DNA from: Burkholderiales bacterium | GTDB taxonomy: Bacteria > Pseudomonadota > Gammaproteobacteria > Burkholderiales > Burkholderiaceae_C | NCBI GenBank assembly: GCA_003963005.1 | Contig: RXJW01000009.1 | Coordinates: 40,165-104,164, forward strand | DNA: 64,000 nucleotides | Direction of reading: 5' to 3' | Shown here: one piece after another, positions 24,561-37,673 of the stretch | Numbering within the stretch: position 1 is the first letter of the stretch | How the letters are laid out: each line of letters begins with the position of its first letter | Notes under the pieces: generated by a model | What the model was told of the DNA's origin: nothing | The model's input: the letters and a program-made list of their open reading frames with translations, nothing else | Database searches by the model: none | Made by a program: the position numbers and the translations under genes

Positions 24561-25210
24561 GTCTTCTGAGTGCGCGCGGCCTGGCCAAGTCCTACGGAGA
24601 GGTCGCGGTGTTTGCCGGGGTCGACCTCGACCTGCAACCCGGCGAGATCGTGGCCCTGCTCGGCGAGTCGGGCAGCGGCAAATCCACCCTCCTGAACTGC
24701 CTGGCCGGCCTGGACGAGGCCGACGCCGGGCAGATCGTGCTCGACGGCGCCGACCTGCGCGCGCTCGACGACGAAGGCCGCTCGGCGCTGCGGCGTCGGG
24801 CACTGGGCTTCGTGTTCCAGGCGTTTCACCTGCTGCCCCACCTGAGCGTGGCGGACAACGTCGCCCTGCCCCTGCGGCTGCTGGGTGAGGCGGACGACGG
24901 CCGCGTGGCGGCGATGCTGTCGGCCGTCGATCTCGCCGGTCTGGCCGGGCGCATGCCGCGGCAGCTCTCGGGCGGCCAGCTGCAGCGCGTGGCGATTGCC
25001 CGCGCCCTCGTCCACCGACCGCGGCTGGTGCTGGCGGATGAACCCACCGGCAACCTGGACCCGCGGCATGCCGGGGAGGTGCTGACGCTGCTGCGGCAGT
25101 GCACGCGCGATGTCGGTGCGGCGTGCTTGCTGGTGACGCATTCGGAGGTGGCGGCGCAGGCGGCGGATCGGCGGCTGCGGCTTGATGAAGCGGGGTTGCA
25201 TGAGGCTTGA
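24557..25210 (+). CDS. ABC transporter ATP-binding protein (LolD/AttE-like)
   Basis: MSLLSARGLAKSYGEVAVFAGVDLDL...GESGSGKSTLLNCLAGL...LSGGQLQRVAIARALVHRPRLVLADEPTGNLD; ATGA overlap with RHH gene. Confidence 0.92.
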   Translation: MSLLSARGLAKSYGEVAVFAGVDLDLQPGEIVALLGESGSGKSTLLNCLAGLDEADAGQIVLDGADLRALDDEGRSALRRRALGFVFQAFHLLPHLSVADNVALPLRLLGEADDGRVAAMLSAVDLAGLAGRMPRQLSGGQLQRVAIARALVHRPRLVLADEPTGNLDPRHAGEVLTLLRQCTRDVGAACLLVTHSEVAAQAADRRLRLDEAGLHEA

Positions 25211-25269
25211 GGTGAGCCGTCAAGCGGCATCTTGCGGGCTGCTTTTGCGGTCGGTCTTTGGACTCGATG

Positions 25270-25833
25270 CACCGTGCCGGGACGTCGCCCCGGCGGGCGA
25301 CCTTCTTTTTGAGCGACCAAAAAGAAGGCAAAAAGTCGCCCCTGCAAAACCGCCCCTGCGCTGCGCTTCGGGGTCCCCTGCGATGCTCGCAACCCAGGGC
25401 TCGCCCGGAACTCGCTTCGCTACGCTGCGCTCAAACAACCGGGCGAAGTCAGATGTTGAAGCGTGCTGCGCACGCGCCCTGGGTTGCTGCGCTTCTCGGC
25501 GGTTTAGAAGGGGAGAGCCCAAACAGCCGAACAGCCGCACTGCCAACCGCAGAGGCCGGGCGCTTGAGGTATTTCGTCTTCCCCCCTTGAGCACCGCCGA
25601 GCAGCGGAAGGCCTTGCGGGCGTGCGCGCAGCGCACTTCAACCTCTGACTCCGCGCAACTGTCTGACCGGAGCGTAGCGGAGGGAGTTTTGCGCGGGCCC
25701 TCAAGGCCTGAGCAGCGCAGGGCACCCGCAGCGAAGCGAAGGGCGGTGCGGTCGGGGGTCGTTTTTTGCCTACTTTTTGTCGACACAAAAAGTAGGTCGC
25801 CCGCCGGGGCGACGTCCCGGCATGGGCCGTGCC
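25270..25833. repeat. ~550 bp mirror-symmetric structured element (two diverged inverted arms)
   Basis: 29 nt perfect terminal IR (25275-25303 / 25794-25822), terminal hairpins at 25302-25327 and 25770-25795, homologous stem sets in both arms, central CTCGGCGGT/ACCGCCGAG pairing (25495-25503 / 25593-25601). Confidence 0.9.
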
Positions 25834-25876
25834 TTGCAACCGACTGCCCGCGAAGCGAAAGAAGGCTGCCCCGCTG

Positions 25877-28420
25877 ATGCTCTGGCGCCACTTCTCCTGG
25901 CCCGCCTGGCGCGCCCACCCCACCCGCATCGCCCTGGCGCTGCTCGCCGTGATGCTCGGCGTCGCCCTGGCCTTCGGCGTGCACCTGCTCAACGGTGCGG
26001 CGCTGGCCGAGTTCGCCCGTGCCGCCCGCGGCGTCAATGGTCAGGCGGACCTGCTGCTGCAAGCCCGCAACGGCAGCCTCACCGATGCCGACCTGACCGA
26101 CGTCCTCAACCGCCCCGGCGTCGCCAACGTCAACCCCGTCATCGAAGCCGAAGCCCTCTGGCCCGGGCAGCCCGGCCCCGCTGGTCGGGGCATCTCCGTG
26201 CACCTGATCGGCCTGGACCCGCTGGCCCTCTATGCCTCGGCCGCCGAAGGGCGGCCGCTGGCGCCGGAGCTGACGCCGCAACTGGACGGTGGACCGATGG
26301 ACGCCGTCGCGGCGGTGACGCTGCACCTGAACGCCGCCGCGCGCAGCCGCCTGCCGGCCGGCACCACGCACATCACACTGCGCCTGCCGCAGCCGGGCGG
26401 TGCGCCGCCGCGTGATGTCGAGTTCGCAATCGGCGGCCGCATTGCCGCCGGCAACTCGCCGCTGGGCGTGCTCGACATCGCCGACGCCCAGGCCGTGTTC
26501 GGCCGGCTGGGCAGCCTGGACCGCATCGACCTGCAGCTGCAGGCGGGGACCGATGCCACCGCCTGGGCCGCCCGGCTGCCCGAACGCTGGCAGGCCCGCC
26601 CGCCGCAGGACGAAGGTGCCCGGCTCTCCGACCTCACCCGCGCCTACCGCGTCAACCTCGGCTTGCTCGCTCTGATGGCCCTGTTCACCGGCAGCTTCCT
26701 CGTCTACGCGGTGCTGTCGCTCAGCACCGCGCAGCGCCTGCCGCAGTGGGCACTGGTCGGCGTGCTGGGCGTGTCGGCCCGCATGCGCTGGAGGCTGATC
26801 CTCGTGGAAGGCGCCGTCATCGGCACCGTAGGCACGGGGCTGGGCCTGGCCCTGGGGGTGGGGCTGGCCGCGGGCGCGCTCAAGCTCCTGGGCAGCGACC
26901 TGGGCCTGCACGGCGGGGCGAGTTCGTCGACGGACCTGCTCTTCAACCAGCCGCTGCTGTTGCCGGCCGGCGTCTACGGCGGCCTGGGCCTGGCGGCGGC
27001 GCTGGTGGCGGCACTGGCGCCCGCACTGACCGTGCGCCGGATCGCACCGGCCCTCGTGCTGAAGGGGCTGGGCCTGCCTTCGGGGCGCACGCTGCCGGCG
27101 GCGGCGGGCGGGGCACTGATGGCGCTGGGCGCAGGCCTGGCCTGGCTGCCGCCGGTGTGGGGCGACACGCCGGTCGCGGCTTACCTGTCGATGCTCTTCC
27201 TGCTGCTCGGCGGCATCGCGCTGGTGCCGGCGCTGGTCAGGGGCCTGACGGCGCTGCTCGCGCACCTGCCCACCGGCCCGCTGCTGCTGCTGGCCCGCGA
27301 GCGCAGCCGCGACCAGGCGACCGAGGCCCGCCGCTCGCTGGCCGGCGTGCTGGTAGCGCTGGCGCTGGCCGTGGCGATGACGGTGATGATCGGCAGCTTC
27401 CGGCAGTCGCTGATGCACTGGCTGGACGATGCCCTGCCGGCCGACCTCTACGTGCGCAGCACCCTGCGCCTGGCCAATGGCGCGCAGACCGTGCTGCCCT
27501 CGGACGTGGTGGCCGGCCTCGACCGACTCCCCGGCGCGGCCCGCGCGACGCCGCAGCGCACGACCGGCCTGCGCCTGGCACCCGGCGCCGAGCCGGTGGC
27601 GCTCACGGCCCGGCCGATCGAGGCCGGGGGACTGCCGCTGGTCGAGCGCTGGACAGGTGCGACGGCACCGAATGCGGTGGCGGTGTGGGTCAACGAAGCC
27701 GCCCGCGATCGCGACGGCCTGGTGGTGGGCCGCGTGTTCACCGCCGAGCTGCGCGACACCGGACGGCTCGTGACGCTGCAGGTCCGAGGCATCTGGCGCG
27801 ACTACTCCCGCCAGGCCACCGCGTTGTGGATGGACCTGGCGGACTACCGCCGCCTCTCGGGCGATGACACCGTCACCGAAGTCGCGCTGTGGCTCGCGCC
27901 GAACGCGTCGCTGGACGCCGTGCGCGCTGCCGTGCGCGGGCTGGCGGGCGACAACCTGGAGATGGCAGCCGCCGGCGAACTGCGCGAGCTGTCGCTGAGC
28001 ATCTTCGACCGCAGCTTCGCCATCACGGTCTGGCTGCAGGCGGTGGCACTCGCGGTGGGCCTGTTCGGGGTCATCGCGAGCCAGTCGGCCCAGGCGCTCG
28101 CCCGCAAGCGCGAGTTCGGGCTGCTGCGGCACCTGGGCCTGTCACGCCGCCAGTTGATGCGCCTGCTGCTGCTCGAAGCCAGCCTGACCGGCGGTGCGGG
28201 CGCCCTGGCCGGACTGGGCCTGGGCCTGGCCTTGAGCGCCGTGCTGGTGTTTGTCGTCAACCCGCAAAGTTTTCACTGGAGCATGGACCTGCACCTGCCG
28301 CTGGGCCGGCTCGCGGCGCTGGTGGGCCTGGCCTTCGTCGCGGCCGTCGGCGCGTCGGCCTTCGCCGGGCGACAGGCGCTGGGCGCCGATGCGGTTCGCG
28401 CCGTGAGGGAAGACACCTGA
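25877..28420 (+). CDS. FtsX-like ABC transporter permease (AttF/AttG fused type)
   Basis: MLWRHFSWPAWRAHPTRIALALLAVMLGVALAFGVHLLNGAALAEF...; repeated FtsX/MacB TM blocks; ends DAVRAVREDT. Confidence 0.9.
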   Translation: MLWRHFSWPAWRAHPTRIALALLAVMLGVALAFGVHLLNGAALAEFARAARGVNGQADLLLQARNGSLTDADLTDVLNRPGVANVNPVIEAEALWPGQPGPAGRGISVHLIGLDPLALYASAAEGRPLAPELTPQLDGGPMDAVAAVTLHLNAAARSRLPAGTTHITLRLPQPGGAPPRDVEFAIGGRIAAGNSPLGVLDIADAQAVFGRLGSLDRIDLQLQAGTDATAWAARLPERWQARPPQDEGARLSDLTRAYRVNLGLLALMALFTGSFLVYAVLSLSTAQRLPQWALVGVLGVSARMRWRLILVEGAVIGTVGTGLGLALGVGLAAGALKLLGSDLGLHGGASSSTDLLFNQPLLLPAGVYGGLGLAAALVAALAPALTVRRIAPALVLKGLGLPSGRTLPAAAGGALMALGAGLAWLPPVWGDTPVAAYLSMLFLLLGGIALVPALVRGLTALLAHLPTGPLLLLARERSRDQATEARRSLAGVLVALALAVAMTVMIGSFRQSLMHWLDDALPADLYVRSTLRLANGAQTVLPSDVVAGLDRLPGAARATPQRTTGLRLAPGAEPVALTARPIEAGGLPLVERWTGATAPNAVAVWVNEAARDRDGLVVGRVFTAELRDTGRLVTLQVRGIWRDYSRQATALWMDLADYRRLSGDDTVTEVALWLAPNASLDAVRAAVRGLAGDNLEMAAAGELRELSLSIFDRSFAITVWLQAVALAVGLFGVIASQSAQALARKREFGLLRHLGLSRRQLMRLLLLEASLTGGAGALAGLGLGLALSAVLVFVVNPQSFHWSMDLHLPLGRLAALVGLAFVAAVGASAFAGRQALGADAVRAVREDT

Positions 28421-37483: not shown

Positions 37484-37558
37484 TGGTGGGCGGTGCAGGG
37501 TTCGAACCTGCGACCCCTGCCGTGTGAAGGCAGTGCTCTACCGCTGAGCTAACCGCCC
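37484..37558 (-). tRNA. tRNA-Val(CAC)
   Basis: RC: GGGCGGTTAGCTCAGCGGTAGAGCACTGCCTTCACACGGCAGGGGTCGCAGGTTCGAACCCTGCACCGCCCACCA; anticodon loop TTCACAC; encoded CCA. Confidence 0.95.
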
Positions 37559-37598
37559 GAATTCATGGGCGCTGGTCTTCAGGTCACCAACCGGGAGT

Positions 37599-37673
37599 TG
37601 GTGGGCGGTGCAGGGTTCGAACCTGCGACCCCTGCCGTGTGAAGGCAGTGCTCTACCGCTGAGCTAACCGCCC
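37599..37673 (-). tRNA. tRNA-Val(CAC), identical second copy
   Basis: Identical 75 nt sequence to 37484-37558. Confidence 0.95.

Follow-up and report, generated by a model that had tools for sequence, protein, structure and literature searches.

REPINs and BIMEs are dispersed, non-coding, extragenic inverted doublets. Their units are hairpins with compensatory changes, and the singlets that occur alongside them look like remnants (PMC3116915, PMC2817692). Among MITEs, Chunjie was inserted into an operon without disturbing it, as it is cited in PMC10969869. The intergenic repeats R0-R200 of P. fluorescens are 50-350 bp long, several contain inverted repeats, and their copy number varies between strains (PMC2718517). 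BRE, a repeat of ~90 bp, is found in Bordetella, Polaromonas, Delftia, and others; in the available text of PMC3110155, it is mostly intergenic, has 69% GC, and is often tandem.

The element described here is located in a window of 64,000 nucleotides, the whole stretch of DNA that was analysed, from a Burkholderiales genome (G000). Two genes of one ABC transporter flank it: the ATPase gene, with its stop codon at 25208-25210, and the permease gene, which starts at 25877. Most of the 666 nt that separate them is element sequence. The element is ~615 nt long; the family size is ~600 bases, and this form contains no genes. Its two arms, alpha and beta, are inverted and ~73% alike or complementary. 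The terminal inverted repeats are perfect over 29 nt (25275-25303 / 25794-25822) and match at 87% over 63 nt. Outer conservation reaches about -34 from the terminal hairpin and fades beyond that point in the 118 ends compared. Features of this copy are listed in the table.

Features of the element and its flanking genes in the window
Feature	Position	Strand	Remarks
Upstream gene, ABC transporter ATPase	24602-25210	+	PF00005, 1.9e-37
Whole element, approximate borders	25241-25856	+	core 25276-25821 plus ~34 nt of conserved terminal sequence per side
Alpha arm	25276-25515	+	aligned in 64 full-length copies; R1 match 25375-25502, 145.5 bits
Terminal hairpin, alpha end (GCCGGG / CCCGGC)	25276-25294		covarying 25278/25292, 98% Watson-Crick
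H1 hairpin, alpha arm	25302-25327		covarying 25302/25327, 25304/25325, 25309/25320, 25311/25318
Closing stem, alpha arm	25344-25350 with 25503-25511		each arm has one
Stem 2, alpha arm	25389-25400 / 25476-25487		five covarying pairs; aligned helix 3: 10/10 pairs changed on both sides
Stem 3, alpha arm	25401-25446		covarying 25407/25440, 25408/25439; inner pair 25414/25430
Hairpin 4, alpha arm (GCGTGC-TGC-GCACGC)	25461-25475		covarying 25462/25474
Beta arm, inverted relative to alpha arm	25585-25821	-	R1 match 25723-25594, minus strand, 139.5 bits
Stem 2, beta arm	25610-25621 / 25697-25708		covarying 25610/25708, 25611/25707, 25613/25705, 25617/25701, 25618/25700, 25619/25699, 25620/25698
Hairpin 4, beta arm	25622-25636		covarying 25623/25635, 25625/25633
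Stem 3, beta arm	25651-25696		covarying 25651/25696, 25657/25690, 25658/25689; inner pair 25667/25683
H1 hairpin, beta arm	25770-25795		covarying 25772/25793, 25777/25788
Terminal hairpin, beta end	25803-25821		covarying 25805/25819, 100% Watson-Crick
Downstream gene, FtsX/MacB-type permease of the same transporter	25877-28420	+	PF02687 and PF12704

A preliminary description of this locus had reported the 29 nt repeat; H1, stem 2, and stem 3 in both arms, with one mismatch in stem 2 of the beta arm; a stem 3 loop of 30 nt and a stem 3-to-stem 2 spacer of 29 nt, the same in both arms; and double compensatory changes from one arm to the other (six in stem 2, four in stem 3, and one in H1). On re-reading, all of these were confirmed. 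The terminal hairpins, hairpin 4, the closing stems, and the outer conservation are additions to that description. The pairing of CTCGGCGGT with ACCGCCGAG (25495 and 25593) that was thought to join the arms is unsupported, as inter-arm covariation is absent; the two are copies of a conserved CTTCTCGGCGG / CTGCTCGGCGG motif. Folding of the spacer (647 nt) gives z = -14, as RNA or DNA, and the terminal motif is found at two places only in the window, both of them element ends (0.01 expected). The arm structure is thus far beyond chance. Elsewhere in the window, the minus strand carries a tandem pair of tRNA-Val (CAC) genes with equal Rfam scores (37484-37673).

The element is a member of a multi-copy family. 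This genome contains ~20 copies or fragments, many of them truncated at contig ends, as the assembly is broken by the repeat. In Roseateles/Pelomonas, a DNA search finds matches in 18 of 19 congeners, and a covariance model finds 0 to 34 arms per congener genome. Across the order, relatives are found in 75 of 398 genomes (39 of 159 sampled genera) with a core model built from 82 arms, and 9 of 299 genomes in a phylum sample have matches, two of these in other families of the class; copy counts in these large samples are lower bounds, with few candidates per genome scored. Two partial matches are on plasmids (Comamonas and Variovorax), and the phage sequences searched contain no element match. 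Rfam 15 has no match over the element at the gathering threshold, and a lax threshold returns chance-level matches only. A literature search, including by sequence words, found no described family matching the element, with BRE set apart by description only.

Each arm is composed of a terminal hairpin, H1, a closing stem, stem 2, stem 3, and hairpin 4 (64 full copies). Paired cells make up 95.7% of the 82-arm alignment, compared to 79.2% when shuffled and 25-55% when slid. In the same alignment, 22 of 33 pairs are changed on both sides, and the covariation score of 0.485 was reached by 0 of 500 shuffles. Over the whole element, a G-test with average-product correction finds 25 Watson-Crick covarying pairs in alpha, 31 in beta, and none between the arms (64 full copies). 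Structural covariation across genomic homologues, anticipated from the single copy, is therefore real on a multi-copy alignment. The most stable predicted fold of the whole strand is one long arm-arm hairpin; as a selected fold, it was rejected for its zero inter-arm covariation. Because all covariation is within arms even though the whole strand prefers the arm-arm hairpin, the single arm is the functional unit. Full copies examined possess one alpha and one beta arm, inverted, and the same is observed in G304 and others. The unpaired motifs CCTGCGaTGCTCG, AACTC, GAGTCAG, and CTGCGCTTCTCGGC are invariant across genera while the stems change.

The most telling feature of the element, which the preliminary description had not noted, is its place between stop and start codons inside operons. 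Among 72 copies with both neighbours callable, 67 are between co-directional genes, 4 are between divergent genes, and 1 is between convergent genes; the window background is 34 co-directional gene pairs of 52 (65%). The binomial p-value of this bias is 7e-8, uncorrected for shared loci. Loci from named genomes, which are partly the same genomes as in the 72-copy set, are co-directional in 40 of 43 cases. The neighbours are partners of one operon, e.g., OppC/OppD-type, GspF/GspE, DctQ, HlyD/MacB, and Alpha-E/DUF2126, and they start or end a few tens of bases from the element. The upstream stop is TGA in 46/47, and the downstream start is ATGA or GTGA in 38/47, compared to 26/53 in the window (p = 0.0016). 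Context p-values are only indicative because many copies are at orthologous junctions, and gene calls rest on a simple codon score, for which window genes were the training set, rather than on full annotation. The operon preference is lineage-specific, since copies outside the genus are also found between convergent genes. Arms between convergent genes are seen at three loci (L202, L211, and L220) of G154, a genome from another family of the class.

Two junctions were compared across 19-20 congeners, and both show presence/absence polymorphism at orthologous sites. At the ATPase/permease junction (19 congeners), the stop and start overlap as ATGA in four (G017, G001, G015, and G013) and as TGATG in one (G002). 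The element is between stop and start in G000, G010, G006, and G012. Three congeners have element-free short spacers of 13-52 nt, which are not overlaps. In the remaining congeners, the element is complete or partial, or is represented by one arm or by an ends-only remnant. In G004 (L174), the 48 nt spacer is a GC-rich hairpin (GCGCAGCGGCCC...GGGCCGCTGCGC), unlike the element.

At the OppC/OppD-type junction (20 genomes), a TGATG overlap is found in two genomes (G015 and G001) and a full element in nine. In four further genomes, the start codon, at a contig end, follows element sequence or a long spacer. A single arm is found in one of the others and ends-only remnants in two; in the last two, the site is taken by a palindromic repeat unrelated to the element. 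A different repeat at the same stop/start site suggests that the junction itself is a hotspot. This other repeat (CCACAGAG... / ...CTCTGTGG) is found at L267 and L275 (G007 and G002), where the spacer is 110-124 nt. At both junctions (19-20 species), the shortest element-free states are stop/start overlaps, ATGA or TGATG. The ends-only remnants L170, L283, and L284 are 76-93 nt, as if the interior had been lost between the terminal repeats.

Signs of mobility include the terminal repeats, the single-arm and ends-only remnants, and the presence of both element orientations at one junction. Orthologous copies are 82% alike, compared to 81% for random pairs and 85% for copies within a genome, and the nearest neighbour is the same-locus copy in 1/31 cases only. 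Together with the two orientations, these values agree either with repeated insertion into preferred junctions or with gene conversion and inversion events between copies. In flank comparisons that sought a target-site duplication (longest common substring; fixed register), only ATG(A) is repeated beyond mismatched flank pairs, and flank identity is otherwise no higher than in those pairs. This repeat is also forced on both sides by the stop and start codons, and duplication-like cases are few, e.g., L139 (CATGAC) and L163 (GATGAGC). In G000, G010, and G017, an autonomous copy was sought by terminal-motif spacing, and no motif pair enclosing a transposase and no insertion sequence with the element's ends were found. 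The paired terminal motifs in G010 and G017 are 400-660 bp apart.

A non-coding, trans-mobilised insertion element of the MITE/REPIN type, unusual in size, target, and architecture, with structured DNA ends and entry into stop/start overlaps, is the explanation considered fairly probable. The preliminary description's reading of the locus as a BIME-like, mobile doublet, in which a structured unit of ~270 nt is present twice in inverted orientation, is supported. The element would be a giant REPIN/MITE-like unit with long terminal inverted repeats, each end an independently folding arm. The strict Watson-Crick pairing and lack of wobble argue that the arms probably serve, at the DNA level, as folded ends to be recognised. 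The unit would be inserted by a recombinase provided in trans, with a preference for sites inside operons where stop and start codons overlap (ATGA and TGATG). The stop and start would stay intact, leaving both genes readable, and a structured spacer of ~600 nt would now be present between them in the mRNA. We infer that the element moves, that an enzyme reads its arms as DNA, that its location reflects target choice rather than selective retention, and that polar effects are avoided.

In longer forms of the element, the arms are separated by cargo genes, 0.9-2.7 kb in all. Those from other families, with inverted arms at distances of 1.1-1.3 kb, carry genes of lower GC content; the products are a zinc-ribbon and a protein of 175 aa, small membrane proteins (including one 8xMP), or a RelE-like toxin with an HTH antitoxin. 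The loci L296, L297, L298, and L299 (G476, G595, and G397) and L301 (G584) have 0.9-1.2 kb of cargo between inverted arms, with a cargo GC of 44-63% compared to ~70% in the arms. The RelE-like toxin and HTH antitoxin make up the cargo of L301, and the cargo of L297 includes the 8xMP protein. In the congener G018 (L307:1332-4233), the arms are 2.7 kb apart with four foreign-looking genes between them. One of these matches the PADLOC candidate defence family PDC-S57 (T5orf172 domain), and the cargo has 55% GC within surroundings of 75% GC. No transposase was seen between the arms of the longer inverted-arm loci, where cargo alone is found, and an integron attC search in the cargo loci found no canonical site. 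The window copy, which lacks cargo, may be the minimal form, and the longer forms would be the same unit holding cargo genes between its arms. Rather doubtful at present is the broader proposal of a class of DNA-structured mobile units, with two independently folding arms as folded-DNA ends, homing to stop/start overlaps that leaves operons unbroken, cassette-like cargo (toxin-antitoxin and candidate defence), and an unrecognised recombinase.

In the helices, G-T and A-C are each ~1%, and wobble is as rare as the A-C mismatch on either strand (invariant T-G column set aside). An apparent sense-strand GT excess (101 GT vs 28 AC) came from that one invariant column pair, 5/143 (81/101), and is gone without it. 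Structural RNA helices normally contain several per cent G-U. With G-U below this level, the constraint looks DNA-level, both-strand, or like palindrome correction. The rarity of wobble speaks for DNA-level pairing or palindrome correction rather than for a one-sense RNA.

Template-switch correction is an established mechanism for quasi-palindromes in E. coli. Replication template-switching would repeatedly copy one side of each hairpin onto the other, and the paired changes would be by-products of mutation rather than of selection on the stems. This alternative is possible but on the whole not expected to be correct. It fits the strict complementarity without wobble bias, the symmetry of GT and AC, and the replacement of adjacent pairs together, e.g., in stem 2 of L112. 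Alone, it leaves the invariant unpaired motifs across genera and the fixed alpha/beta difference unexplained, and there is no arm-arm correction although the arms are ~73% complementary. The compensatory changes had been described as a signature of selection; the changes are real, but the selection is unproven, since template-switching can also make quasi-palindromes complementary. Palindrome correction could act together with trans-mobilised insertion and with the other readings.

An intercistronic structured RNA is an unlikely explanation. The spacer would be kept for expression tuning, Rho or exonuclease blocking, or RNase III sites, like intercistronic REPs, and movement would be ancient and secondary. 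Copies inside operons of functional partners, the RNA fold at z = -14, the filling of orthologous junctions in many species, and the alpha arm on the upstream side in 53/67 copies are all consistent with such a role. However, G-U as rare as A-C on either strand is unusual for RNA helices, orientation varies even at one junction, and the element is absent from the same junction in some species. Moreover, the arm-arm hairpin, predicted as the most stable structure of the full transcript, lacks covariation. The structured RNA suggested earlier is thus weakened in its one-sense form, by the rarity of wobble and by arms in both orientations.

A REPIN/BIME mobilised by a RAYT (Y1 TnpA-REP) transposase is very unlikely. 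Hairpin units in an inverted doublet, with changes that compensate each other, are also a trait of REPINs (PMC3116915), and Y1_Tnp genes exist in the genome. However, no copies adjoin either of the two Y1_Tnp genes in G000, and such genes are also found in the element-poor congeners G001 and G015, so the Y1/RAYT link of the preliminary description is not borne out. In addition, at ~270 nt the unit is longer than the 20-40 nt of a REP, and some forms carry cargo. A decayed inverted duplication without function, to which the inverted, ~73% alike arms would conform, is refuted by the multi-copy covariation and has almost no probability, as full-length copies with intact helices are present in many species, and every copy examined has a single alpha and a single beta arm.

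If trans-mobilised insertion is correct, an insertion can enter the tightest sites of an operon without breaking either gene. Sister species that differ in having the ~600 nt structured spacer at the OppC/OppD-type or the ABC transporter junction would then be a natural experiment in translation uncoupling. The covarying arms are a test set for palindromic repeats, where folded-DNA selection, RNA function, and template-switch correction are the options of a long-standing REP question. The cargo forms suggest that, in Burkholderiales, accessory genes may use the arms as a vehicle.

The element works like a REPIN or a MITE but fails on REP unit size, RAYT neighbours, and a parent transposon (three genomes). 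The R0-R200 repeats have a tail-to-tail bias (convergent genes), whereas the element in Roseateles is almost only co-directional, a comparison made by description. No inverted two-arm architecture is reported for BRE in the available text of PMC3110155, unlike the element, and this distinction is by description and not by sequence. The element differs from MITEs in that no parent insertion sequence with its ends was found in G000, G010, and G017; it also has complex covarying arms, repeatedly fills the same operon junctions, and has flanks that repeat only ATG(A). Like the MITEs Chunjie, CIR, Correia, and ERIC, it has terminal inverted repeats, a length of a few hundred bp, no transposase gene, and an intergenic location. 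In comparison to REPINs and BIMEs, its unit is a ~270 nt multibranch structure rather than a REP palindrome of 20-40 nt, and it has two fixed arm types, a stop/start junction site, cargo forms, and no RAYT association found. As in these systems, the element is dispersed and non-coding, forms an inverted doublet of covarying hairpin units, and has singlets that look like remnants.
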